Positions 1-15,208 of a stretch of 64,000 nucleotides of DNA are shown piece by piece; positions within the stretch are counted from its first letter, which is position 1; each line of letters begins with the position of its first letter. This DNA comes from Akkermansia muciniphila (GTDB lineage Bacteria > Verrucomicrobiota > Verrucomicrobiia > Verrucomicrobiales > Akkermansiaceae): the NCBI GenBank assembly GCA_945901795.1, contig CAMDLP010000009.1, forward strand, positions 1-64,000, read 5' to 3'. A program made the position numbers and the translations under genes. The notes under the pieces are model-generated. The model searched no databases, was not told the origin of the DNA, and was given only the letters and a program-made list of their open reading frames with translations.

Positions 1-1914
1 ATCCTCACCCTCTGGAACGGCTACACCACCAAGACCCACCCCGTCACCGGCAAGGAAGTCCCCGACGAATCCGCCACCATCGCCCTCTTCGATTACAAAA
101 ACCCCCGCCGCGCCGAGTGGCCGCAGGCGGATTACATCGTCGGAAATCCGCCCTTCATCGGAAACAAGCGGATGCGAGAAGCACTCGGCGACGGGTATTC
201 AGAATCACTTCGCAAGGCCTGGAAAGCTGACGTTCCGGAATCTGCTGACTTTGTTATGTATTGGTGGAGCAAGGCTGCATCTGAGATTCTAAAAGGTAGG
301 TGCCAAAGGTTTGGCCTCATTACAACCAACTCAATTCAACAAACCTTCAACCGAAGAATTCTGGAGGGATTTCTTGCCAATGAAAAGAAGCCTCTCCACC
401 TCTCTTATGCAGTTCCCGATCATCCATGGGTTGATTCCGCAGATGGAGCGGCTGTAAGAATCTCCCTCACCGTGGGCGCAAAAGGAAGTGACGAGGGCGT
501 GTTGGAAACTGTCGTCGACGAGGTGATGAATTCCACGGACGGTTCCTATGAAATAACATTAACACGAACCAAAGGCCTCATTTCACCATCTCTAAGCATC
601 GGCGCAAATCTATCATCAGCTTTTGAACTAAAGGCCAATTCGATGCTTTGCGGCCAAGGGATCAAGCTGGTCGGCGATGGCTTTTATGTCCAGAAACCTC
701 TCGATGGCAACCCGGTCAATCCAGTGACCAATTACAAACTGATCCGGACAATCGTGAATCCTACCGACATCATGCAGAACAGAGATGGGCGGTTAGCGAT
801 CGACTTTGCAGGAATGACAGCTGATGCCGCTTGTGATCTTGCGCCAGCTTGCTTTCAAAAATTGATTACAGAAGTAAAACCCCTGAGAGATCCGAACCCG
901 AGGGACTCTATTCGTGAGATTTGGTGGAGGTTTGCCTGGGAGCGCCCGGAATTGCGAAAGGCACTTCGTGATCTCGGGCACTATTTCGTCACCCTTGAGA
1001 CGGCAAAACATCGGTATTTCGTATCGATCCCAGAGACTTCGCTTTGGGACGGATCCCTCTTCGCAATCGCAACGAATGATTGGTATGTCGGCGGGATTCT
1101 TAGCAGTAATATCCACTGCACATGGGCGCACGAAAATGGAGGCAGGCTTGGGCCTACACCAAGATACAATCGCGCCCGCTGTTTCGAAACCTTCCCATTC
1201 CCCGCGCTCGAAGAATCCCCGCTCAAGCAGCGCATCCGCGCACTCGGCGAGCGGCTCGATACGCACCGCAAGCGGCAGCAGGAGCAGCATCCCGGCCTCA
1301 CGCTCACCGGCATTTACAACGTGCTCGAAAAGCTCCGCAGCGGCGAGCCGCTCAACGCCAAGGAAAAGCAAATCCACGACCAAGGCCTCGTCACCGTGCT
1401 GCGCCAGATCCACGACGAGCTGGATGAAGCCGTGTTGGAAGCGTATGGGTGGCAGGACTGTAGCGGCGATCACCGGTCGCCGAGTTTGGATGGCGCAGAG
1501 AAAGAGGAACCGCGGCGACCGGTGATCGCCGCTACGCTCCTCACCCGCCTCGTCGCCCTCAACCACGAGCGCGCCGCCGAAGAAAAGCGCGGCCTCATCC
1601 GCTGGCTGCGCCCGGACTATCAGAATTCCACCGCCGCCGCGCCCCAACCCGTCCAAACCACCCTCGATGGCACCGATCCAGACTCGTCCTCTTCAAATCA
1701 AAAATCTAAAATCAACAATCCTCAATCGTCAATCCATCCCTCTTCCTGGCCCGACCGCCTCCCCGACCAAGTCGCCATCCTCCGCAAGCTCATCGGCACC
1801 GATCCCACCGCCACCGCCGAACAACTCTCCGTGCTCTTCGGCCGCAAGAACAAGAAACGCACCGAGCAGATCGAGGGGATTCTGGAGACGCTCAAGGGGC
1901 TGGGGCAGTTGTGA
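1..1914 (+). CDS. Class I SAM-dependent DNA methyltransferase, MmeI/DrmMI-like (C-terminal part, 5' end outside window)
   Basis: Frame open from base 1; IVGNPPFIGNKRM (motif IV NPPF) and MmeI-like C-terminal pattern LNHERAAEEKRGLIRWLRPDYQ. Confidence 0.85.
   Translation: MLTLWNGYTTKTHPVTGKEVPDESATIALFDYKNPRRAEWPQADYIVGNPPFIGNKRMREALGDGYSESLRKAWKADVPESADFVMYWWSKAASEILKGRCQRFGLITTNSIQQTFNRRILEGFLANEKKPLHLSYAVPDHPWVDSADGAAVRISLTVGAKGSDEGVLETVVDEVMNSTDGSYEITLTRTKGLISPSLSIGANLSSAFELKANSMLCGQGIKLVGDGFYVQKPLDGNPVNPVTNYKLIRTIVNPTDIMQNRDGRLAIDFAGMTADAACDLAPACFQKLITEVKPLRDPNPRDSIREIWWRFAWERPELRKALRDLGHYFVTLETAKHRYFVSIPETSLWDGSLFAIATNDWYVGGILSSNIHCTWAHENGGRLGPTPRYNRARCFETFPFPALEESPLKQRIRALGERLDTHRKRQQEQHPGLTLTGIYNVLEKLRSGEPLNAKEKQIHDQGLVTVLRQIHDELDEAVLEAYGWQDCSGDHRSPSLDGAEKEEPRRPVIAATLLTRLVALNHERAAEEKRGLIRWLRPDYQNSTAAAPQPVQTTLDGTDPDSSSSNQKSKINNPQSSIHPSSWPDRLPDQVAILRKLIGTDPTATAEQLSVLFGRKNKKRTEQIEGILETLKGLGQL
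1460..1535. repeat. REP-like inverted repeat (23-bp perfect arms) inserted in frame in the methyltransferase CDS
   Basis: gtagcggcgatcaccggtcgccg (1460-1482) and its exact reverse complement cggcgaccggtgatcgccgctac (1513-1535), 30-bp spacer. Confidence 0.9.
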
Positions 1915-1967
1915 ATGCCTGCATTGACCTTGATTCGCGCAGTCGCTAGCCTCCGGCCCATCCAACC

Positions 1968-2954
1968 ATGATCTCCACCCTTGAACTTCAGCAATTCCGC
2001 GGACTCGAACACGTCAAGTTCGAGAATCTGGGACGGGCCAACCTCATCGTCGGGGGGAACAACACCGGGAAAACTTCGATTCTGGAGGCTCTGGTCTTGC
2101 TTTGTGGGAATCAGAGTCAGCTCCAAGCACTGCCAACAACTTTCCGCGAGTTGCCGCAGAATGGTCAGGATCAGGGACAGGGCTTCTGGAAATTGCTAGT
2201 CAGGGGAGAGAATATCGACGAATTTAAAATCATCGCGGATGGCAATCAGGTGATAGGTGTTGCCGAGAAGGAAGGATGGAGGTTTCGAACACCGAATGTT
2301 GTACAAGGGAAGTCCCCGCTGGTCATCAGCCTTGATTCCAATTGGAACGCCGGAGGGCATCGCGCTGTAGGAGCATCTAAACTCTCCATCCTCTCCACGA
2401 AGCAAGCGGATCCGGCTGTAGTGTCCGATCTCTTCAACCAGATCGCCCCGCTCAATCCCGAGAATGAGACGAAGCTGGAAGACCTGTTGCGCCAGTCCAT
2501 CGAGCCGCGCCTCCGCCGCCTCCGCTATGCCAAGCCCCAAGGCACCCACACCCACCTTGTCTATGTGGACTTGGGCGAAGGCCCGATGCTGCCATTCACC
2601 CAGCTCGGCCAAGCCTTTGCACGGACTTTACAGGTGTATTGCGAAATCTTCGCAAAGCGCCCGAACATCCTGTTGGTCGATGAAATCGAAAGCGGACTCT
2701 ACTTCGAAGGTCTTGAGGATTACTGGAAGGGCCTGATGGCAGTTCTGGAAGATCAGAACGTGCAACTTTTCGCCACGACCCACAGCCGCGAATGCATGGA
2801 AGCCGCCCATCGCGCCGCCGCTTCGATGAAGGACGATCCATTGCGTTTCCTGCGTTTGGACCGGCGGATTGATGACCCGTCGAAGATCGTCGCCACGACC
2901 TTTGGAAAAGAAGAGATGCAAACGGCGATTGAATTCAACCGCGAGATGAGATGA
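1968..2954 (+). CDS. AAA/ABC-type ATPase (OLD/PARIS AriA-like)
   Basis: N-terminal FRGLEHVKFENLGRANLIVGGNNTGKTS (Walker A), NILLVDEIESGLY (Walker B), TTHSRE. Confidence 0.85.
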   Translation: MISTLELQQFRGLEHVKFENLGRANLIVGGNNTGKTSILEALVLLCGNQSQLQALPTTFRELPQNGQDQGQGFWKLLVRGENIDEFKIIADGNQVIGVAEKEGWRFRTPNVVQGKSPLVISLDSNWNAGGHRAVGASKLSILSTKQADPAVVSDLFNQIAPLNPENETKLEDLLRQSIEPRLRRLRYAKPQGTHTHLVYVDLGEGPMLPFTQLGQAFARTLQVYCEIFAKRPNILLVDEIESGLYFEGLEDYWKGLMAVLEDQNVQLFATTHSRECMEAAHRAAASMKDDPLRFLRLDRRIDDPSKIVATTFGKEEMQTAIEFNREMR

Positions 2955-3583
2955 CACCGCACAAGCCGATCCCATTGGTCTTATGCGAAGGCAAGGAAGA
3001 CCGCCTCGTGATGGAAGCGCTCGCGCGGCATGTCGGCCTCAAAGGCAAACTGGCGTTCCAGGATTACGGGGGTGAAAGCAAACTGCGTGCGTATCTTGCA
3101 ACCCTCAAAGTCAGCCCGGAGTTCCGCCGCGGCGAGTTCTCCCGCATCTTGGTGACTCGCGATGCCGATGCGGATTTTGCGCAAGCTTGGGCGTCACTCA
3201 AAGGATCAATCCAAGCCGTTTTCTCCAGTGAACCGGCGACACCTAGAGCCTGGATCTCCGCGGGAAACGTCTCTCAAATCAGCGCATGGGTGATTCCCGG
3301 CCCCGACAAAGCCGGCATGATCGAAACCCTCTGCCTTGAAGCTGCACGCACCAAGTCGCCATCGGACTTTGGTTGCCTTGATCCCCTAATGGCCTGTTTG
3401 GAAAACCTTCAAGGTGAAAAACCTCACGAGAAGGTCCGCTTCGCAATCTGGACGATCATTGCACAGGGCACGGGCGCCAAGAAGCGGCTGTCTCTGGAAC
3501 GTGCCATTGATCACCTGCCTTTAGATTGGGGTGACGAGGCATTTACCCCATTGAGAGAGTTACTAACTGAACTTACCACATAA
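2951..3583 (+). CDS. DUF3226/TOPRIM-like protein, partner of upstream ATPase
   Basis: VLCEGKEDRLVMEAL and VTRDADAD resemble TOPRIM E and DxD motifs; ATGA overlap with the ATPase gene. Confidence 0.7.
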   Translation: MTPHKPIPLVLCEGKEDRLVMEALARHVGLKGKLAFQDYGGESKLRAYLATLKVSPEFRRGEFSRILVTRDADADFAQAWASLKGSIQAVFSSEPATPRAWISAGNVSQISAWVIPGPDKAGMIETLCLEAARTKSPSDFGCLDPLMACLENLQGEKPHEKVRFAIWTIIAQGTGAKKRLSLERAIDHLPLDWGDEAFTPLRELLTELTT

Positions 3584-3629
3584 GTCTGCGCGGGATGCAT
3601 CTCCACCGGAAGCCCCCAGCGAATCTTGT

Positions 3630-3944
3630 ATGAAACTCGAATTCAACATGGTCACCGAGTTCGGCGAATTCCTCGCCGATGGTCACCTTGGCAACCAATT
3701 CCGAAACCTCTGCATTGAAAGCGTCTGGGGTCGCGTTGAGTCGGTGACATTCGATTTTACCGGTGTTACGAACCTGACGGATTCCTTCGTCCACGCGACA
3801 TTCGGCAACATGGCGGAGGAGCACGGAGACGAATTTGTGGCGAAGGTGAAATTCAAGGGCTGCTCGCCCTTGGTGCGTTCCTTCCTTTCCATTGCGGTAG
3901 GCGAGGGGCTGAGAAAGCACCGAGCCATGCACCGCGGGTGCTGA
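3630..3944 (+). CDS. STAS-like (DUF4325) domain protein
   Basis: VTFDFTGVTNLTDSFVHATFGNMAEEHG pattern typical of DUF4325. Confidence 0.7.
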   Translation: MKLEFNMVTEFGEFLADGHLGNQFRNLCIESVWGRVESVTFDFTGVTNLTDSFVHATFGNMAEEHGDEFVAKVKFKGCSPLVRSFLSIAVGEGLRKHRAMHRGC

Positions 3945-3962
3945 TCGCTTTCAAGGATTGCA

Positions 3963-4415
3963 TCAGCTTGCGATCTTCGTCCGATCCGCCGCCCACTTGC
4001 GTGCCTTGAGAATTTCAAACGCACCAGGATCCGCCATCAGCACGCGGATATAGTTGCTGATGGAGGCGGAAACCTGAAACGGCCCCTTGAGCCAACGGCC
4101 GATCATCTTTTCACCGAGTCCGAGGATCTGCTCCGCCTCACGCTGGGTGAGCTGATATTGATCAAGGAATGATTGAAGCTCCTCCCGTGATAAACGGCTG
4201 ACAGCGCGGTCCAGATAGTCATTCACATAGGCGGTGGCCTCGCCGGAAAGCACCGTGTCACCGCAGACGTTGCAGCGTTCCATGGGCATCTCCGGGATAG
4301 TGATTTCCAAGCCTTCTGAGGTGTGGGTGGTGAAGGGCTCGCGCACCGGCAGCAGAATCCCTCCTTCGCACTCGAAGCAGGGATGTCCTTGGGTATTGCT
4401 GGTTTTGGATTTCAT
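3963..4415 (-). CDS. MqsA/YgiT-type zinc-finger HTH antitoxin
   Basis: CFECEG...CNVCGD zinc-binding cysteines followed by HTH LTQREAEQILGLGEKMIGRWLKG. Confidence 0.8.
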   Translation of the reverse strand: MKSKTSNTQGHPCFECEGGILLPVREPFTTHTSEGLEITIPEMPMERCNVCGDTVLSGEATAYVNDYLDRAVSRLSREELQSFLDQYQLTQREAEQILGLGEKMIGRWLKGPFQVSASISNYIRVLMADPGAFEILKARKWAADRTKIAS

Positions 4416-4774
4416 GGCTGTTTCTGGATCGGGATGAGCGGCAACGGCGGACCGGGAATGTTGTGGCGATGGACGGAGATTTTCACCCTCGGCGGATGGG
4501 AGCCATCGGGCGAGAGCGTGATGTGGATCAGGAGTTCGTTTTCATCGTATCTCATGACGAACTGGTATTTCTGAGGGTGGGTGCCGGGCTTGAGGAACAA
4601 TTCGTAGATTTCGAGGTCGGTGATCAGATCGCGGATGAGTTCGTCATCCCGGAGATCGATGGAGTGGAGAAAGCGGAAGTTGTCACGATGGATGAACCGG
4701 CGGCTCCGATCACCAAGGCATTCGATGATCATTTGCCGAACGTGGGCCGACGCGATGCGAGGTAGTGGCGTCAT
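4412..4774 (-). CDS. Putative toxin partner of the MqsA-like antitoxin (start probably the internal ATG at 4774; ORF extends to 4834)
   Basis: Small ORF upstream of and overlapping the antitoxin gene by ATGA; toxin-first order as in mqsRA/higBA. Confidence 0.55.
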   Translation of the reverse strand: MTPLPRIASAHVRQMIIECLGDRSRRFIHRDNFRFLHSIDLRDDELIRDLITDLEIYELFLKPGTHPQKYQFVMRYDENELLIHITLSPDGSHPPRVKISVHRHNIPGPPLPLIPIQKQP

Positions 4775-4790
4775 TGCCTGAAAGGGAGAT

Positions 4791-4806
4791 AGTGCGAATT
4801 CGCACT
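4791..4806. promoter_or_regulatory. 16-bp perfect palindrome, candidate toxin-antitoxin operator
   Basis: AGTGCGAATTCGCACT, 17 bp upstream of the candidate toxin ATG. Confidence 0.55.
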
Positions 4807-4843
4807 TTTTGCAAGGCGATGTTTTGTCCTGCAAACCAAAATT

Positions 4844-4879
4844 CCCCGCAGGCGCGCCGTTGCCAGCGCGCCTGCGGGG
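4844..4879 (-). terminator. Rho-independent terminator of the 4886-5827 gene
   Basis: 14-bp perfect stem ccccgcaggcgcgc / gcgcgcctgcgggg, 8-nt loop, followed on minus strand by AATTTT. Confidence 0.75.
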
Positions 4880-4885
4880 AGGATT

Positions 4886-5827
4886 TCAGTTCAGCGTGAT
4901 GCCGGCGGGGGCGCTGGCCGATCCGTCGCCCCATTCGTTGTGGGCGATGATGGTGACGGATAGAACGACGCCGAGCGGCAGGCCGGTGAGCGTGGTCTGG
5001 TCATCGGCGAAGAGGCCGAAGACGCGGGGCTCGGGCTCGCCGGGGACCTGGACTTTCACGCGGTAGCCGGTGGCGCGGCGGGCGGAGTTCCAGTCCGCGA
5101 TGAGCGTGCCGGTGGTGGCGGCTCCGGCGGCGAGCACGAGGTTTTCCGGGCTGCCGGGGGTGGATGGGTCGTCCGGGCGGTTGAAGCCGAAGGCATACCA
5201 GATGGGGCTGTCTCCGGTGAGCGGGAGCTGGGTGAGCTCGTCACGCAGGCCGCCGAGACGGCGGCGCATGGCATCGAGCGAGGTCGCGCGGGCGGCGGCG
5301 GCGGCGCTGCTTTCGTTAGTCGCGTCGTTCACGCTGGTGCGGGTGGCGGAGATGTTCGCGTAGTGGATGATAGCGACCGCTTCGGTGACATCGAGATCCG
5401 GCCGGGCGGGATCGGTGACGGCATACTCGGGGTGGTTCCCGAGAAACAGTTTGAGCTCGCCGATGAGGACGAAGCGGTCGCCCTGGGTGCCAGGCATGCT
5501 GATGGATCCGGCGGAGAATCCGGCCTCCTGCCAGAGCGGTCCCCAGCTGCCACCTAACCGCGGTTTCTCCAGCTGGATGAAGCGGGCGATGAAGGCCTTG
5601 CCGTTGGAGTCGGTGGTTTTGTTGGCGCTGGAGGCAGTCGCCTTGGCCGTGCGGCGGACCGCGGCGAGGCCTTCGGCGCCGACGAGGCTGTTCAGCTCGA
5701 TGCGGATCACGCCCTCGGTGTTTTGCTTGAGGCCGATGGCGACCTCGTGGGTTTGTGCGCCGTTGGCGGCGTCCTCGGTGAGAGCGACGACGTCGGTATA
5801 GCTGTGTGGTATCTCGTTAGTGGCCAT
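4886..5827 (-). CDS. Hypothetical protein with fibronectin-III-like C-terminus
   Basis: Long ORF; C-terminal TLIADWNSARRATGYRVKVQ...TTLTGLPLGVVLSVTIIAHNEWGDG is FN3-like. Confidence 0.65.
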   Translation of the reverse strand: MATNEIPHSYTDVVALTEDAANGAQTHEVAIGLKQNTEGVIRIELNSLVGAEGLAAVRRTAKATASSANKTTDSNGKAFIARFIQLEKPRLGGSWGPLWQEAGFSAGSISMPGTQGDRFVLIGELKLFLGNHPEYAVTDPARPDLDVTEAVAIIHYANISATRTSVNDATNESSAAAAARATSLDAMRRRLGGLRDELTQLPLTGDSPIWYAFGFNRPDDPSTPGSPENLVLAAGAATTGTLIADWNSARRATGYRVKVQVPGEPEPRVFGLFADDQTTLTGLPLGVVLSVTIIAHNEWGDGSASAPAGITLN

Positions 5828-5973
5828 GGTGGCTTGTGTTTGTGGGAGGTGCCGCCGGTTTTCCTGCCCGGCGGGTGTGTGTAGATGCGGCTCCGCCCGA
5901 CAGGGCGGAAATCCGAAGGAAAGTGTATATCATGCTGAAAATCAGTGGATCACGGGTCCATGACTGCGGCAAA

Positions 5974-6268
5974 ATCCGGCCGCGCGCGGGCATGTGGGTG
6001 CGGTACCCCTCCAAAATCCCGCCGCGCGCGGGGGTGCCAGTCCGGTACCGCCTCAAACGCCCCGCCGCGCGGAGGGGTGCCGGTGCGGCATGCCTGCAAA
6101 CCGCCGACGCGCGGAGGAGTGCCGATCCGGCAGGGCCGCAAACCGCCGCCGCACGGCGGGGTGCCAGTGCGGCAGGGCCGCGCACGGCGGTCGCGTGCGG
6201 TCCTGCCGGACCGGTGATGCCCCACACGGCCGCCGCGCGGGGGCATGCCGCACCCCATTTCCGCATCA
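5974..6268. repeat. Degenerate ~42-bp tandem repeat, about 7 units
   Basis: Units such as ccgccgacgcgcggaggagtgccgatccggcagggccgcaaa (6101-6142) and ccgccgccgcacggcggggtgccagtgcggcagggccgcgca (6143-6184). Confidence 0.85.
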
Positions 6269-6484
6269 ACGGGAAGCCGCGGACGGCCGAAACGCGGAGG
6301 GTGACGCGATATAATAACAATCGCTAACATTGGGTGGCCCCCGGTCGAATCGTCAATGTATCAATTCGGCATTCTCAGGCGCTTCGGTGCCACAAAACTC
6401 TCAGCCAAGAAGCCGAGTCCACACAAGTTCGCTTTTGATTTCCGGGGGGACGTCAACCGAACAGGGCAAAGCCAAGTGGCTCTG

Positions 6485-6538
6485 AAAAAAAGCGCGCGTT
6501 GTGAGATCCGGGGGGATATCCAACGCGCGCTTTTCTTT
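6485..6538. terminator. Bidirectional rho-independent terminator
   Basis: aaaaaaagcgcgcgttg ... caacgcgcgcttttctttt; stem flanked by A- and T-tracts. Confidence 0.85.
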
Positions 6539-6554
6539 TGCAACGTGGCGGCGG

Positions 6555-7784
6555 TCACCGGTCCTTGTCGTCGTGAATTGCGCTCAACGACCGAATCGCC
6601 GCCACCATCACCGGATCCTCCCACGCTTCGATGATCTTCCGTTCCTCCGGTGCCAGTGAATCGATCTGGCAGCGTTTCATGAAATTCGCGCGGCTCGCGT
6701 CATCGATCACGACCGCGACATCCGGCGTGATCCCCTTGCGATGCGGGGTGTTCCCCGATGGCGTGTGATAGGTGGCGATGGTGAGCCGCAACGCCGTGCC
6801 GCCGCCCATCGGGATGATGTTTTGCACGGAGCCCTTGCCGTAGCTGACCTCGCCGACGACGATGGCACGCTTCAAATCCTGAAGCGCGCCGGCGGTGAGT
6901 TCGGAGGCGGAGGCGGACATCCGGTCGAGCAGGACGACCAGCGGATAGTCGCGTTTCCGGCGTTGCCGGTCCGGTGTTTTCAGCGGCTCCGCCGACTCCC
7001 CTTCCCGGCCGCGAGTGGTGACTACGGCGGTGTTGGGCGGCAGAAAAAGTCCGAGGATTTTCACCGTTTCATTCAAATCGCCGCCGCCGTTTTCGCGGAG
7101 ATCGAAGACCAGGGATTTCATGCCGCTGTCTTCGAGTTCGTCGAGGGCGGCTTCCATTTCACGGGCGCAACCGCTGCCGAAAATCGCTAGACGGAGGTAG
7201 CCGATCCCAGTTTCTTTGTTCCAGATTTTCGACTCGGCGACCGAGCGCTGCTCCACCACGCGATGGACGAGCGCCACCTCGACCGGCTGAGGAGCCGCCG
7301 GCGACTTGAGCAACAGGCGGGTGGTCTCGCCCGCGGCACGGCGCAGCGGTCCGAGCAACTCGGAGAAATCCACGCCCTGGGTTTTCCGCCCGTCGATTTC
7401 CAACAGCCCCGAACCGGGCAAAACCCCGGCAAGCGCCGCCGCCCCCAGCGGCGAAACGGCGGCGATGTAAGGCCCGTCATCGCGCAAACCGAGGGTGATC
7501 CCGAGCGACGGCAACTCCGGATTGAAATCCTTGTGGTCCTGCATCTGCCGGGCCATCTCCGGGTGCATGAACGACGAGTGCGGATCGAGGCTGGCGAGCA
7601 TTCCTTCGAGCGCATGGTTGACCAGCCGGTCGTAAGCCAGCCGGTCCACATCCGGGTGTCGCTTGCGGACCGCTTCCAGGACTTCCACGAACCGCTCGAT
7701 CGCCGGATAAGCCGCCTCATCGGGATCGGGCGGCGCGGCAAAAGCGACCGAGCTGATCCCGCAAAGCAGACAGAGGAATTTCAT
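6555..7784 (-). CDS. S41 family carboxyl-terminal processing peptidase
   Basis: PDZ-like LGITLGLRDDGPYIAAVSPLGAA, LVFDLRENGGG, DRMSASASELTAGALQDLKRA catalytic region; start set at MKFLCLLCGISSVAFA signal peptide. Confidence 0.85.
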   Translation of the reverse strand: MKFLCLLCGISSVAFAAPPDPDEAAYPAIERFVEVLEAVRKRHPDVDRLAYDRLVNHALEGMLASLDPHSSFMHPEMARQMQDHKDFNPELPSLGITLGLRDDGPYIAAVSPLGAAALAGVLPGSGLLEIDGRKTQGVDFSELLGPLRRAAGETTRLLLKSPAAPQPVEVALVHRVVEQRSVAESKIWNKETGIGYLRLAIFGSGCAREMEAALDELEDSGMKSLVFDLRENGGGDLNETVKILGLFLPPNTAVVTTRGREGESAEPLKTPDRQRRKRDYPLVVLLDRMSASASELTAGALQDLKRAIVVGEVSYGKGSVQNIIPMGGGTALRLTIATYHTPSGNTPHRKGITPDVAVVIDDASRANFMKRCQIDSLAPEERKIIEAWEDPVMVAAIRSLSAIHDDKDR

Positions 7785-8120
7785 GGCCGCAGAGGTAACA
7801 TTTGCAGCTGCGGGCGATAGAGAAAAATCCTCGGCCGCCGCCATCGATTTTAAAAATAATTTCGGTTGCGGGAAGGCGGGCTCGCGGTAGTCTGCTGACG
7901 ACTGCTGTGTACGACTAATTTGGTAGCTGGCCCGAACCGATATGATTGAACCGGGGTCATCTTCCGATGGACGATGTCACGCCTTTTCAGGAAGACGGAA
8001 AACCATTGGACGACCCCACTTATTGAGTTTACGGAACGTGGCTCACAGCGCCAAGGACGGCACAGCGGTTTTCTTTTTTCATGGCTTGATTTGACCCAGC
8101 CCTGCATGGTCTCGCGCGTG

Positions 8121-8897
8121 ATGCGATTTGCAGTGCTGGGCAGCGGGAGCGGGGGAAATGCGGCGGTCGTCGAGTGCGGCGGGCTGCGCCTGATGATCGA
8201 TGCGGGGTTGAGCGCGAAGCAATTGTCGCTGCGGCTCAATCAGGTGGGAATCGATCCCGCGTCGCTGGACGGGATTTTGCTCACCCACGAGCACGGCGAC
8301 CATGTCCGCGGGCTGAAGGTTTTCCTCAAACAGCACCCGGTGCCGGTGTTCACCACGCCGGCCACGGCGCGGGTGGTGCGGGAGAATGGGATCGAGGGCG
8401 GGACGTGGAAATTTTTCGAAGCGGGCCAGGTGTTCGCCATCGGCGGAATCGCGGTGGAGACCTTCGCGATCCAGCATGACGCGGTGGACCCGGTGGGTTT
8501 CGTGGTCGGGCATGACACGCGGCGGCTTGGATTTCTATCCGACGCGGGGTTCGTCACCCGCAGCATGACCGAACGGCTGCGCGGGCTGGACGGGATTTTC
8601 GTGGAGGCCAACTACGACGAAGGCCTGCTGGAGGCGGACACCAAGCGACCGTGGTCGATCAAACAACGGATCAGTTCGCGGCACGGGCATTTGTCCAACG
8701 GCCAGGTCACCGAGTTGATCCGCGACATCTCCCACCCGGCGCTCGGGCGGGTGGTGCTCGGTCACTTGAGCTCGGACTGCAACACGCCGGAGATCATTCT
8801 ATCCATGCTCCGGAACTGCCTAGCAGATCTCGGTCATGGCCACGTCGGCCTGCACTGCGCGGGCCAGCACGAGCCGACGGCGTGGTTCTCGTTTTAA
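8121..8897 (+). CDS. MBL-fold metallohydrolase (YycJ/WalJ-like)
   Basis: MRFAVLGSGSGGNAAVVE...LLTHEHGDHVRGL (HxHxDH). Confidence 0.85.
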   Translation: MRFAVLGSGSGGNAAVVECGGLRLMIDAGLSAKQLSLRLNQVGIDPASLDGILLTHEHGDHVRGLKVFLKQHPVPVFTTPATARVVRENGIEGGTWKFFEAGQVFAIGGIAVETFAIQHDAVDPVGFVVGHDTRRLGFLSDAGFVTRSMTERLRGLDGIFVEANYDEGLLEADTKRPWSIKQRISSRHGHLSNGQVTELIRDISHPALGRVVLGHLSSDCNTPEIILSMLRNCLADLGHGHVGLHCAGQHEPTAWFSF

Positions 8898-8917
8898 GTT
8901 TTGGAGGCGGTCGGCGC

Positions 8918-9652
8918 TCACCTGCGCCACAGGACGAAACCCGCGGTGGTGAGCACCAGCAGCGCGAAAGAGCGCCGCAGGGCCAATTCGGGAAGCCGGG
9001 ACACCAGTTTTCCGCCGATGAGCACCCCCGCCGCGGCGATGACGGAGAAGACCGCGGCTAACAGCCATGGAACCGGTGCCTCTCCCAAATGACTGATGAA
9101 TCCCGACGCCGAGTTCGCGGCGATGATCGCGAGCGAGGTGCCGGTCGCCACGCGCAGCGGGAGTCTGGCGAATTTCACCAGCGCGGGCAGCAGCAGGAAA
9201 CCACCGCCCACGCCGAGAAAGCCGGTGAGCACGCCGACACCCGCGCCGGCCAAAAGGCAACGGACAGGGTGGCACTCCGGCTCAGGCTGAAGCGTGGTGT
9301 TTTTCACCAAAAGCATTCTCACAGCCACCACGATCATGAGGACGGCGAAGGAGATCATCAACACCGCGGGAGAAACCAGGTCTGTCAATTTCGCGCCGAA
9401 GATCGCACCCAGCATGCCGGCCCCCGCGAACGTGCCGGCAGCGAGGAAATGCAGTTCCCCCGCTCTCGCGCGCTGCCAGGCGCCGACCAGCGCGGCGGAT
9501 CCCACGATCAACAAGCTCAGGCTGATCGCCTCGCGTGGCGCGACTCCCGCCAGATAGACGAGAACCGGCAGGGTGAGGATGCTGCCACCCGCACCGGTTA
9601 GTCCGAGGGAAAGTCCGATGGCCACGGCACCTAGCAGCGCGAGCGGAGTCAT
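8918..9652 (-). CDS. TauE/SafE family sulfite exporter-like permease
   Basis: GLTGAGGSILTLPVLVYLAGV and second-half repeat GFLGVGGGFLLLPALVKFARL. Confidence 0.85.
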   Translation of the reverse strand: MTPLALLGAVAIGLSLGLTGAGGSILTLPVLVYLAGVAPREAISLSLLIVGSAALVGAWQRARAGELHFLAAGTFAGAGMLGAIFGAKLTDLVSPAVLMISFAVLMIVVAVRMLLVKNTTLQPEPECHPVRCLLAGAGVGVLTGFLGVGGGFLLLPALVKFARLPLRVATGTSLAIIAANSASGFISHLGEAPVPWLLAAVFSVIAAAGVLIGGKLVSRLPELALRRSFALLVLTTAGFVLWRR

Positions 9653-11061
9653 GATTTCAGGTGGTTTGGAATTTCCGCGAAGTCGCCATCGACATGCACG
9701 ACCTCGCGTCCCTGGCTGGCCAGATAGGCGGCGGCGATGCCGGCCCGCAGGCCGCTGCCGCACTGGACGTAAAGCGGCCCGCCGGACGGCACCTCATCAA
9801 GCCGCGCGGCGAGGCGGGTGTAGGCGATGTTTTTCGCTCCGGTGACGTGACTGGCGGCGAATTCATCCGCTCCACGCACGTCGAGCACCAGCACGCCGGC
9901 CTGAAGTTCCCGTGTGGAAACGCGTCGGATACTGGCGGTGAAATCAGTGGCGGCGAGCGCCTCGTCGACCGGAATCCACGCCTCGACGCTATCCAACCCG
10001 ATGCGGATCAACTGGCGCACCGCTTCGTCGAGCTGGCTTTGATTTTCAATGACCAACAGGATGCGGGCGTTTTCATCCACGTAAGATCCGGCGGCGACAG
10101 GCAGCTTGCCGCCCGGCATGGGAGCCGAAAGCGAGCCTTGCAAATGCCTGCCAGCAAAAGCCGCGCGATCCGACCGCAGGTCGAGAATGGCGCGGTCCTT
10201 TTTTCCGATCCACGAGCCGAGCTGGTCCGCGGTGATCCGGCTGGGGAGCGGGAGCTTGCCTTCCGGCAAAAGCGCGGGACCGAGGCGGTTGTCGCGCTTC
10301 ATCCGGGCGAAATAGCGGGGCGGCTCGGGCTGGCCGTGGAGGATGTCGCTCACGAACTTGTCCTCGCCGGCGGTCAGCGCCTCGCGGAAGGCGGGGTTGA
10401 ATTTCCTTTCATAACCCAGAACGCTGTTAGGAATCGCGCCGAGCGCCTTGCCACAAGCGCTGCCCGCACCGTGCGCGGGAAGGATCTGCAGGTGTGCCGG
10501 CAAGTCCGCCGTCGCCCGCAGGCTCGCGTAAAGCGTTCTCGCGCTGGGCTCCATGACTCCGGCCTGGCCGGCGGCGCTCTCCAACAAGTCCGGGCGGCCG
10601 ACATCGCCGACGAAGATGAAATCCCCGGTCAGCAACGCCATCGGCTCGTCCGCGCCGCCGCCGATGTCGGTGACGAGGAAGCTCATGTGCTCCGGCGTGT
10701 GGCCGGGAGTTAGAAGCGCCTTGAACTCGATGTTTCCGACGCGGAAGACATTGCCGTGTTTGAGAAAACGGGCGTTGGAGTGACCCTTCGCCCACTCGAA
10801 CTGCCAGTCCGGCCCGCCTTCTTCCGAGAGATAAGCAGTCACCCCGTGGCGCTCCATCAGCTCGCGGGCCCCGCTCAGATAATCGGCGTGGATGTGGGTG
10901 TCCGCGACGGCGGTGATCCGCAGGCCGTTTTCCTCAGCGACTTGGAAATAGCGGTCGAGATCGCGCTCGGGATCAATGACGATCGCTTCGCCGGTGCGCT
11001 GGCAGCCGATCAGATAGGCGTTCTGGGCGAGCGAGGAATCGATGATTTGACGGAGGAACAT
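9649..11061 (-). CDS. MBL-fold/rhodanese fusion (persulfide dioxygenase / CstB-like)
   Basis: MBL motif DTHIHADYLSGA, tandem rhodanese domains with C-terminal VQCGSGLRAG active site. Confidence 0.85.
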   Translation of the reverse strand: MFLRQIIDSSLAQNAYLIGCQRTGEAIVIDPERDLDRYFQVAEENGLRITAVADTHIHADYLSGARELMERHGVTAYLSEEGGPDWQFEWAKGHSNARFLKHGNVFRVGNIEFKALLTPGHTPEHMSFLVTDIGGGADEPMALLTGDFIFVGDVGRPDLLESAAGQAGVMEPSARTLYASLRATADLPAHLQILPAHGAGSACGKALGAIPNSVLGYERKFNPAFREALTAGEDKFVSDILHGQPEPPRYFARMKRDNRLGPALLPEGKLPLPSRITADQLGSWIGKKDRAILDLRSDRAAFAGRHLQGSLSAPMPGGKLPVAAGSYVDENARILLVIENQSQLDEAVRQLIRIGLDSVEAWIPVDEALAATDFTASIRRVSTRELQAGVLVLDVRGADEFAASHVTGAKNIAYTRLAARLDEVPSGGPLYVQCGSGLRAGIAAAYLASQGREVVHVDGDFAEIPNHLKS

Positions 11062-11079
11062 GGCGGTGAGGGTTGGAGG

Positions 11080-11631
11080 TTAGATCGAACACGAGTTGCC
11101 GGCGCACTTGGTGCCGGAGCGTTGGTTCCAGGGCATTTTCGCCAGCACCATCGCCATGCCGCACCAGTCGGTGACGCCGGCGAAAATCAGGCCGGCGCCG
11201 ACGAAGGCGCTGAGCCCGTAGAATCCGGCATGCACCCAGGTGCCAAGAATCACGCCGAGAAGCACCAGCGATCCGGCGGCGATCCGCACCTGGCGCTCTA
11301 GCGAAACCGCCTTCGCACCCCGCTCCACCGGCAGTCCGGCGCTTTCCCAAGCGGCCACGCCGCCATCGAGAATCACCAGATTCCCGCAACCGGCGGCCTC
11401 GAGTTTTTGGCAGGCCTGTTCGGCGCGTTTTCCGCTGCGGCAGACAATCACGCATTCTCGGTCTTGCGCCGCAGCATACTTCACGGCTTCCACGTCGAGA
11501 CGGTCAAGCGGCATCAGGACGGATCCTGGGATGTGGACCTCGCCGTATTCCGCGGGTGTGCGGACATCGATGACGTTGACGGACTTGCCGGATTGGAGGT
11601 CGGTGTTGAGTTGTTCGGGTTGTATTTTCAT
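11080..11631 (-). CDS. Rhodanese domain plus DUF2892-like membrane domain protein
   Basis: VIDVRTPAEYGEVHIPGS, VIVCRSGKRAEQA, C-terminal membrane segments. Confidence 0.85.
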   Translation of the reverse strand: MKIQPEQLNTDLQSGKSVNVIDVRTPAEYGEVHIPGSVLMPLDRLDVEAVKYAAAQDRECVIVCRSGKRAEQACQKLEAAGCGNLVILDGGVAAWESAGLPVERGAKAVSLERQVRIAAGSLVLLGVILGTWVHAGFYGLSAFVGAGLIFAGVTDWCGMAMVLAKMPWNQRSGTKCAGNSCSI

Positions 11632-11687
11632 AAAGTTGCTTGCGACAAGCTCAACCGGGACGCAGCGAGACCCGCCGATCTGAAATT

Positions 11688-12428
11688 CTAGTCCTTAAAC
11701 ACCGGAAAACCCGCCGACGGACGCAGTTTCAAAGGCGGCTCGATCTGGAAAGATTCCGAATCCCCGATCTGGTAGGATCCGTAGGCGATGGGGATGACGG
11801 TCAGCAGCAGCGCGGGCTCGTCCTCGTGGATGATCTTGGAAATGTGGACGACGGCCGCGCAATTCGGGCTCTTTTTGACGCTCAGGATGTCGCCGGATTT
11901 GAAGGAGCCCGCGACCTCGGCCTGATGCGTCGGGAACACGTATTCGATGAAAACCGGATACGGCAGCGGCTTGGTGAAGTCGTCGGGTTTCACCAAGGCT
12001 TGCGCGCGGATGACGATGCCCGGATCAAAGAAATCCTGCGGGCTCAATTTCCTGATCCGCCCGACCTGATAGTCGCCCTCGATGTAGTTCAACAGAAGCG
12101 GCCGGTCGAAATTCGTGAGGTAATTCCTCATCAACAGGGAATTCGCCCGGACGCGCTCTTCCTCGGTGTAACCGAAATACCGCTTGTAGAGCTCCTTGTG
12201 GGCCAACGCATTGCCGTTGGGGACATCGAGCACGGTGTAGCGCTTCAGCACCGGCGAACGACCGAGTTTGCCGAGAATCTCGTAGTTTCTCGGAATTTCC
12301 GGATGGCCGAACACATGCAGGCAGACCGCCCAGCTGACGATCGCGAAACAAAGCGCCAGGGCGTTCGCCAACAACCACCAGAAATAGGCGGGACGCGACG
12401 GCGGCAACTCTTCGACAATGCGGGGCAC
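11688..12428 (-). CDS. Conserved hypothetical membrane-anchored protein
   Basis: Single N-terminal TM; good coding frame. Confidence 0.6.
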   Translation of the reverse strand: MPRIVEELPPSRPAYFWWLLANALALCFAIVSWAVCLHVFGHPEIPRNYEILGKLGRSPVLKRYTVLDVPNGNALAHKELYKRYFGYTEEERVRANSLLMRNYLTNFDRPLLLNYIEGDYQVGRIRKLSPQDFFDPGIVIRAQALVKPDDFTKPLPYPVFIEYVFPTHQAEVAGSFKSGDILSVKKSPNCAAVVHISKIIHEDEPALLLTVIPIAYGSYQIGDSESFQIEPPLKLRPSAGFPVFKD

Positions 12429-12443
12429 GACGGCTTGAAAGGA

Positions 12444-12824
12444 TCAGGGTGTGCCGCAAGCCTCGCCGTCCGGCACCGCGTGGGCACCCGCAGGCTCGTC
12501 GGATGTTTCGAACGAGGTGCCGCAGCCACACGAGCGCGCGGCGCGGGGGTTGTGGATCTTGAATCCGGCGTCGGTCAGGTCATCGGAGTAGTCGATTTCA
12601 CATCCCCGCAAGCGGTCGAAGCTGTCAGCGGCCACGATCACGCGGGCCGCACCAGCTTCGACGACCTCATCGCCGGGCTCCGGATCTGCCACGTTCATCT
12701 CGTATTGCCAGCCGGCACAGCCGCCGCGGCGAACGGCGAGACGCAGGCCCGACTGGGCGGACTTGGCCTTGCTCGCGAGGAGTTTGCCGAGTTCTTCGAT
12801 GGCTTTGGGAGTGACGGTAATCAT
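12444..12824 (-). CDS. Iron-sulfur cluster assembly accessory protein (IscA/ErpA family)
   Basis: GLRLAVRRGGCAGWQYEM and C-terminal SCGCGTSF. Confidence 0.9.
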   Translation of the reverse strand: MITVTPKAIEELGKLLASKAKSAQSGLRLAVRRGGCAGWQYEMNVADPEPGDEVVEAGAARVIVAADSFDRLRGCEIDYSDDLTDAGFKIHNPRAARSCGCGTSFETSDEPAGAHAVPDGEACGTP

Positions 12825-13105
12825 GTTCGATGGTGCAACCTAAGTGCTTCCCGGCGATTTGAAACCGGAAATCCGCACAAGCTCAATCACGATCACTTCT
12901 TGCACGAAATGAAAATCCGGACGATTGGACTTCCCTGCGTCGCGAAGTCCCGTGAATCCTTGGATTTCCCGGTAATTCAAATCGGAAGAAAGGTCTTGAC
13001 GGGTCCCCGCTGCGCCTCTTCATTCCGCTCCGCCTGCGATTTCCCCGCCGTGCCCCTAGGCTAGGTGGGGTGTCTCCAGATTTTTGACTCAAGCGCATTT
13101 ATTCC

Positions 13106-15208
13106 ATGTCTTCATCCAAATCTTCTTCCAAGAAATCCGCCGCAAAACCCCAGGTAAAGGTTCCAAAAGCAGCGACAACCAAGGAAGACCCGAAGAGCAA
13201 AAAACCGGCAGCTCCGGTGAAAGAGGCCAAGTTGAAAAAACCTCAAGTCGTGGTCCCCGCTCCCAAAGCCGCTCCCAAAGCGCCCGTGAAAGCCGCCCCG
13301 AAAGTTGTCATCAAGACTCCCGCCAAGGCCGTGGTCATAGCCAAGCCGAAGGCCGTGGTCGCCGCGAAGCCCGCGCCTGCCAAGCCCAAAAAGGAAGTGC
13401 CACAACCCGTCGCCAAAGCTGCGCCTGCCCAGCCGAAAAAGGAAGTGCCGCAACCCGTCGCCAAAGCCGCGCCTGCCCAGCCGAAAAAGGAAGCGCCGGA
13501 GCCAATCGTCAAAGCCGCGCCCTCCAAAGCCAAAAAAGACGTCCCCGCCAGCGGCGAAACCAAGGCCAGCACCAAGGCGGGAGACGCCCCAAAACGCCGG
13601 ATCGACACTCCTGAAATCCAGGAAAAAATCCGCGAACTCATCAAGCTCGCCAAGGAGCAGGACTACCTGACCTACGACGACATCAACGAGATTCTCCCTA
13701 ACGACCTTGTCGATCCCGACGACGTCGAGGCCATCATGGAGCGGCTCCGCAACATGGAGTTCGACATCATCGATGCCTCCGAAGTCGATCGCTACAAGGA
13801 CAAGAAGCGCGACGAAGGCGACGGCGAGGAAGAAGACGTCAAGGCCGACCAGAAACTCGACATCCTCGACGACCCGGTCCGGATGTATCTCAAGCAAATG
13901 GGCCAAGTCCCACTGCTCACCCGCGAGCAGGAAGTGGAAATTTCCAAGCGCATCGAAGATGCCGAAATCGAAGTTGCAAAGCATCTCCACCTCTTCGGAT
14001 TCGTCACCGATTCCTATCTCGAACTCGCTGAAAAGCTCAACAAGGGCAAGGAGCGCTTCGACCGCGTCATCCTCGACAAGAAGATCGAGTCCCGCGAGCG
14101 CTACATGAAAGGCCTCCCGAAACTCTGCGACCAACTCAAGCAGCTTCACCACGAGAACGACGACCTGTTCCGCCAGCTTTCCGCCAAAAATCCGCGCGGC
14201 AAAAGGAAGCTCGAGGAGGAGTTCCAAAAGAACATCCAAACCCTCAACCGCGTCTTCACCCGCTTCTATTACAAACAGAAAGTCGTCGAGGATTTCTGCG
14301 AGCAAGTGGATGAATACATGCAGAAGTTCTGGAAATACGGCCGCAAACTTCAGATCGATCCGGAAGACAAGGAGTTCGTCACCAAGATGCGCGAAGTCCA
14401 ACAACGGACGTGGCACACTCTGGAAACCTTCGAAGAAGCTAACAATCAACTCCGCCACTGGCTCAAGGAAGCACTTAAGGCGAAGACCGAAATGGTCGAG
14501 GCCAACCTCCGCCTCGTCATTTCCATCGCCAAGAAATACACCAACCGCGGCCTCTCCTTCCTCGACCTGATCCAAGAAGGCAACATGGGCCTCATGAAGG
14601 CGGTCGAGAAATTCGAATACCGCCGCGGTTATAAATTCTCCACCTACGCCACTTGGTGGATTCGCCAGGCGATCACTCGCTCCATCGCCGACCAGGCCCG
14701 AACGATCCGGATCCCGGTGCACATGATCGAGACGATCAATAAGCTGATGCGCGTGCAGAAACAACTCGTCCAGGAATACGGCCGCGAGCCTTCCCCGGAG
14801 GAAATCGCCGACGAAATCCACTTGCCCGTCGAGCGCGTGCGCGCCGTGTTGAAAATGGCCCAGCAGCCGATTTCGCTACAAGCGCCTGTTGGAGATTCGG
14901 ACGACACTTCCTTCGGTGACTTCATCGAAGACAAGGCCGCCGACAACCCGATGGAGGAAGCCGGCTTCTCGATGCTCAAGGACAAGATCAAGGACGTGCT
15001 CGACACCCTAACCGAGCGCGAGCGCGAAGTTCTCGAACAACGCTTCGGCCTCAAGGATGGTTACAGCCGCACCCTCGAAGAAGTCGGCCGCCAGTTCCAG
15101 GTCACCCGCGAACGGATCCGTCAGATCGAAGCCAAGGCCCTGCGGAAAATGCGCCACCCCACCCGGATTCGCAAACTCGAAGGCTTCATCGAACTTCCGG
15201 GGGCGTGA
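13106..15208 (+). CDS. rpoD: RNA polymerase primary sigma factor with Lys/Ala/Pro-rich N-terminal extension
   Basis: [33 protein letters not shown], region 4 [31 protein letters not shown]. Confidence 0.97.

Follow-up and report, generated by a model that had tools for sequence, protein, structure and literature searches.

The window, a stretch of 64,000 nucleotides at the start of an Akkermansia muciniphila contig, opens with a set of genes on the forward strand, among which an ATPase gene and a DUF3226 gene form the pair analyzed here. The features are as follows:

1-1914, + strand: type IIG restriction-methyltransferase, C-terminal part (PADLOC REase_MTase_IIG, 1.9e-200); a neighbour, outside the pair
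1968-2954, + strand: ABC/AAA-type ATPase ORF, PDC-M38A-like and AbiLi-like, 328 aa (Pfam AAA_15 6e-18, AAA_21 6e-16)
ATPase residues 29-37: Walker A, GGNNTGKTS
ATPase, ending at D238/E239: Walker B, LLVDE
ATPase, Q266 and H272: the latter being the H-loop His
ATPase, last three residues: C-terminal E-M-R
2951-2954, + strand: ATGA shared by the ATPase stop and TOPRIM start codons, read from the sequence
2951-3583, + strand: DUF3226 TOPRIM ORF, PDC-M38B-like, 210 aa (PF11536 7.4e-16)
3630-3944, + strand: STAS-like DUF4325 ORF, 104 aa (PF14213 8.9e-11); a neighbour, outside the pair

All three Pfam matches, of the ATPase, DUF3226 and DUF4325 ORFs, exceed the curated cut-offs, that of the DUF3226 protein scoring 59 bits where 27 are required. 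An earlier, sequence-only reading of this DNA had placed the ATPase and a protein with EGKED and DADAD motifs on separate frames overlapping by ATGA, with a small STAS-like gene downstream in the same direction, and the coordinates bear this out. The ATGA suggests that both genes of the pair may be translationally coupled. That reading had also put an MmeI/DrmMI-like methyltransferase upstream; a methyltransferase is indeed there, but its best PADLOC model is REase_MTase_IIG, matched over profile positions 530-1125 of 1136, and DrmMI comes only second (3e-68). Just the C-terminal half of this gene is present and its 5' end is open, since base 1 of the window is also the first base of its contig (C9, in an assembly of 120 contigs). 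The GC content, in 1-kb windows, is 0.515 to 0.60 over the first 5 kb versus about 0.61-0.67 over the next 7 kb, which is consistent with an acquired patch. MAG contigs may contain errors. Past the STAS-like gene the - strand carries an MqsA-family antitoxin gene (3963-4415, TIGR03830 7e-15) and, upstream of it and overlapping it by ATGA, a 140-aa ORF (4412-4834) that matches no family; together (3963-4834) they show the toxin-first layout of a type II toxin-antitoxin, with the 140-aa ORF as toxin candidate.

Concerning the TOPRIM protein, EGKED corresponds to residues 13-17 and DADAD to residues 71-75. The alignment of 23 DUF3226 homologues shows E13, G14, D71, P116, G122, E125 and K161 to be invariant in all 23, and D17 and D73 nearly so. 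The catalytic residues of Bp OLD are E400, D455 and D457 for metal A, E404, T506 and E508 for metal B, and additionally K562. By order and topology, E13, D71, E125 and K161 correspond to E400, D455, E508 and K562, and D17 and D73 to E404 and D457; residue order, E-x3-D spacing and the DxD motif all agree, the correspondence being one of alignment and topology and not of superposed coordinates. At the T506 position the window protein has a Met. Two loci (L011/L020, the same loci as L032/L028) show a Gly as the second DxD aspartate, a replacement that may alter TOPRIM catalysis in these proteins.

The AF2 model of the DUF3226 protein (pLDDT 88) locates E13 after strand 1 and D71 at the end of a strand, whereas E125 opens a helix and K161 belongs to a helix further on, positions that agree with the description of Class 2 OLD proteins, with E125 and K161 as in the OLD helical domain. 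A Foldseek search with this model yields 2p62 (PH0156) first (E 4e-4) and the Xcc OLD CTR (6njw) third (E 0.026, prob 0.95), with modest TM-scores of 0.48-0.59, and 2p62 is the only significant PDB match by sequence as well (profile, 1.6e-6). The TOPRIM assignment of the sequence-only reading depended on the fold and on the catalytic residues, and both are found, the former in the structure model and the latter as E13, D71xD73, E125 and K161. By sequence and model, DUF3226 is hence a predicted OLD-type TOPRIM nuclease. The ATPase model is of moderate quality (pLDDT 70) and matches Rad50/SMC heads, PtuA and GajA; the ATPase motifs listed above are conserved among the homologues.

To characterize the association of both genes, PF11536 was searched for in 388 genomes of the phylum, the one phylum to which the survey extends, yielding 21 DUF3226 loci in 19 genomes. 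An ATPase gene lies directly upstream on the same strand in 20 of these 21 loci, and the remaining one (L019/L040) encodes a single-chain 639-aa ATPase-TOPRIM fusion, so that the adjacency is far beyond chance. Every plasmid locus opened also has the ATPase immediately upstream of DUF3226, in five intact pairs and in one pair with a frameshifted ATPase. Taking the window ATPase as query (E <= 1e-15) gives nine loci, eight of which carry DUF3226; the ninth (G015, L075) retains an intact ATPase, but of its TOPRIM protein only residues 172-209 can be recognised, the gene being mostly deleted, which indicates that the ATPase can persist alone. The junctions, compared in 28 pairs, vary between -32 and +22 bases and are mostly -4 or -1. 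The ATPase and TOPRIM distance matrices correlate with r = 0.91 (n = 23; 0 of 2000 permutations as high), partly because of shared ancestry. The pairing of the two genes is near-obligate. At a further locus (L058) only a junction remnant is left, composed of the last 15 ATPase and the first 30 TOPRIM residues; this deletion scar adjoins DuOB, DUF488 and FRG domain genes (L058 6957-7090 and 7323-9795).

The pair has, moreover, a catalogue identity. In PADLOC-DB 2.0.0 the best model for the window ATPase is PDC-M38A (4e-43), followed by AbiLi (1.1e-37) and AriA (1.2e-17), and the top match of the DUF3226 protein is PDC-M38B, a weak one (4e-6) that reaches 3e-11 and 1e-12 in the relatives L052 and L054. 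PDC-M38A is matched by 20 of 20 homologous ATPases and PDC-M38B by 14 of 18 DUF3226 homologues. Pairs carried by Plesiomonas and Citrobacter plasmids match the models strongly (A, 3e-91 and 2e-139), and the plasmid TOPRIM proteins, including one from Acinetobacter, match PDC-M38B at 1e-52 to 3e-85. Judged by E-values and ranking, not by PADLOC's own score cut-offs, the window pair belongs, as a divergent member, to the candidate system PDC-M38, and the view of it as an uncatalogued variant has to be given up. PDC candidates are in general mostly unvalidated (PMC12988326); among the papers searched none on DUF3226 or PDC-M38 was found, nor any phage, toxicity or nuclease assay on a DUF3226 pair.

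The STAS-like gene, which begins 46 bp past the TOPRIM stop on the same strand, had been proposed as a possible third component, that is, as a sensor or regulator acting together with the ATPase and DUF3226. An HMM built from the window STAS protein and two relatives finds, at E <= 1, no match in DUF3226 loci other than the window, including four relatives with 43-58% TOPRIM identity, and in no other sampled genome of the phylum do STAS and DUF3226 genes stand side by side. Of the ATPase, DUF3226 and DUF4325 neighbourhood, then, the first two genes are conserved together, whereas DUF4325 accompanies the window pair only. The four closest STAS relatives (L045, L047, L048 and L050; 103-104 aa) each have a longer gene immediately before them instead; it encodes 311, 325 and 324 aa in three cases and is split into two shorter frames in L047, and HATPase_c was detected in two of the three longer genes tested (L048 and L050). 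STAS as a third component was rejected on these grounds, the three-gene arrangement being extremely improbable, and the window STAS-like gene is a solitary neighbour. The relatives make up a recurrent cassette of the phylum (about 0.4-2.7 kb), a STAS-like/HATPase-type gene followed by the DUF4325 gene with a 4-base overlap. A lost HATPase partner of the window STAS was also sought elsewhere in the genome; the single 45-residue match, in a 51-aa frame (E 3.7e-4), is not a full partner.

A similar question arises for the type IIG gene; 53 bp separate its end from the start of the ATPase gene, and both are on the + strand. The pair could be an accessory of this restriction-modification (R-M) system, either as a back-up nuclease when restriction fails or as an R-M-linked pair similar to RloA/RloB. 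The order recurs in L029, where the pair follows a type I methyltransferase-specificity fusion by 72 bp, and the fused ATPase-TOPRIM of L040 belongs to a type I R-M locus. Nevertheless, among the four closest relatives ORF reading recognised no methyltransferase next to the pair, and the annotations of the plasmids opened show none there either. We therefore consider an accessory role very unlikely. The pair has no fixed methyltransferase partner, and counting the gene as part of the system is not supported: none of the closest relatives inspected has a methyltransferase recognised ahead of the pair, although R-M or methyltransferase genes recur next to it in some more distant loci. In L040 (3686-12800) the fused 639-aa ORF is found between the specificity and restriction subunits, and it matches fused models of the AriAB/GajA type (NsnB/mad3/AriAB-like).

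As for the wider neighbourhoods, the pair is a horizontally moving module, several of whose relatives reside in defence or mobile surroundings. It lies between HmaA with a HerA-like gene and HmaB with HmaC in L025, between helicase/AlbA-type genes (AlbA from reading the sequence) and AbiEi/AbiEii in L027, near PDC-S01 and an FRG gene in L024 and near a MobA/MobL gene in L055, and several related pairs are carried by small mobilizable plasmids. The L025 region (1558-14903) can be described as an Hma operon that encloses, on the same strand, the HerA-like gene along with the ATPase/DUF3226 pair. In three genomes of one genus (L028, L032 and L033) the pair occupies the same site among respiratory-looking, cytochrome-oxidase-like genes, so some copies lie outside islands. 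Searches for the pair in viral contigs (three queries) and phage records (two queries) gave no match. The window TOPRIM protein as query retrieved none from plasmids, whose homologues were found only with a query nearer to the family.

Plasmid carriage also fits a different role, namely a toxin-antitoxin or plasmid-maintenance module in which TOPRIM is the toxin and the ATPase the antitoxin, and whose main benefit is the stability of the mobile element and not phage defence. Apart from the pair, one of the small plasmids encodes only Rep, TraD, MobA and a single additional gene; in E. coli, AAA/TOPRIM_OLD pairs show neutralisation of the toxin-antitoxin kind (PMC10440598); and G015 has kept its ATPase with the TOPRIM gene deleted. 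Pairs are found, however, within an Hma defence operon and adjacent to genes of AbiE and R-M systems, and the decay asymmetry comes down to one clear case, the L075 deletion, while on one plasmid (pAHTJR2) the ATPase is frameshifted and TOPRIM intact. It should be noted that these frameshifts, and that of the L035 TOPRIM gene, could be sequence errors, and that L033 is without a standard start codon and otherwise shows no decay, for which reason the asymmetry was set aside as proof of TOPRIM toxicity. Overall, a maintenance function as the main benefit appears unlikely, and it would not exclude a role in defence.

Taken together, the pair is probably a two-gene, mobile ATPase plus TOPRIM nuclease module, a divergent PDC-M38 member that resembles OLD with its chains separated, in which the ATPase would restrain and sense, TOPRIM would cleave and growth would halt. 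In this mechanism the ATPase would assemble as an oligomer similar to those of Rad50, PtuA or AriA, bind the TOPRIM protein, keep it inactive and sense infection. Once triggered, the TOPRIM protein would cleave nucleic acid by two-metal chemistry, the target being presumably either host tRNA, as for AriB, or DNA, as for OLD and GajA, and the cleavage would halt growth and lead to abortive infection. The complex, its trigger, the target and the abortive outcome are all proposed by analogy with AriA/AriB, where AriA restrains AriB (PMC12409363), and with AAA plus TOPRIM_OLD pairs, which act as toxin-antitoxins in E. coli (PMC10440598).

Many defence systems are proving to use ATPase-restrained TOPRIM effectors, most of whose targets are unknown. 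The present analysis allows a predicted OLD-type two-metal TOPRIM chemistry to be assigned to DUF3226 and to the catalogue candidate PDC-M38, names the residues to mutate, and removes STAS as a false lead. The pair is a further tractable one, has plasmid homologues in Citrobacter and Acinetobacter, and is useful to have though not surprising.

Comparison with known systems starts with PH0156 (2p62), a hypothetical protein of Pyrococcus horikoshii that is the best structure match of the window TOPRIM but is archaeal and of no stated function. The lactococcal abortive infection system AbiL (AbiLi/AbiLii, with an RloB-type TOPRIM) is likewise a two-gene ATPase plus TOPRIM system on mobile plasmids, and the AbiLi match of the window ATPase reaches the last residue of both proteins; the window TOPRIM, in contrast, has no AbiLii or RloB match in PADLOC or Pfam, and AbiLii is matched only by an Okeania homologue (2e-5) and by one of the 18 members of DUF3226 set A1 (8e-7). 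PARIS (AriA/AriB, the proposed OLD class 4) shares the split into ATPase and TOPRIM and the same assumed sensor/effector logic. It differs in its effector, which is DUF4435 and not DUF3226: the window protein has no AriB or DUF4435 match at E <= 1 in PADLOC or Pfam, AriB in the PDB is matched only at E about 0.8, and AriA ranks behind PDC-M38A and AbiLi for the window ATPase. PARIS membership is therefore ruled out by profile ranking, the layout being OLD class-4-like and the sequence not that of PARIS. Of the related OLD/PARIS variant originally proposed, the split OLD-like ATPase and TOPRIM, the DUF3226 effector, the defence-type neighbourhood and the PARIS-like layout stand.

The OLD family (Ts OLD, Bp and Xcc OLD, GajA) has in common with the pair an ABC-type ATPase and a TOPRIM domain with the E/D, DxD, E and K set, as well as the Foldseek match to the Xcc OLD CTR. 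OLD is, however, one chain where the window pair is two, encoded by two ORFs; no GajB-type helicase gene stands beside the window pair; and the ATPase chain of DUF3226 pairs ends in [E/D]-x-R-stop, with a hydrophobic middle residue, in 27 of 28. We tentatively raise the possibility, which we hold to be rather doubtful, that DUF3226 pairs constitute a split-OLD class of their own, separate from both AbiL and PARIS, and that the C-terminal [E/D]-hydrophobic-R-COOH of their ATPase might dock onto or restrain TOPRIM and so replace the covalent link of fused OLD. Closest of all is the candidate PDC-M38, which shares both genes, their order and the Pfam family of the B protein: the window pair combines the A match, the B match and A/B adjacency with a 4-base overlap, and departs from it in the divergence of its TOPRIM protein.
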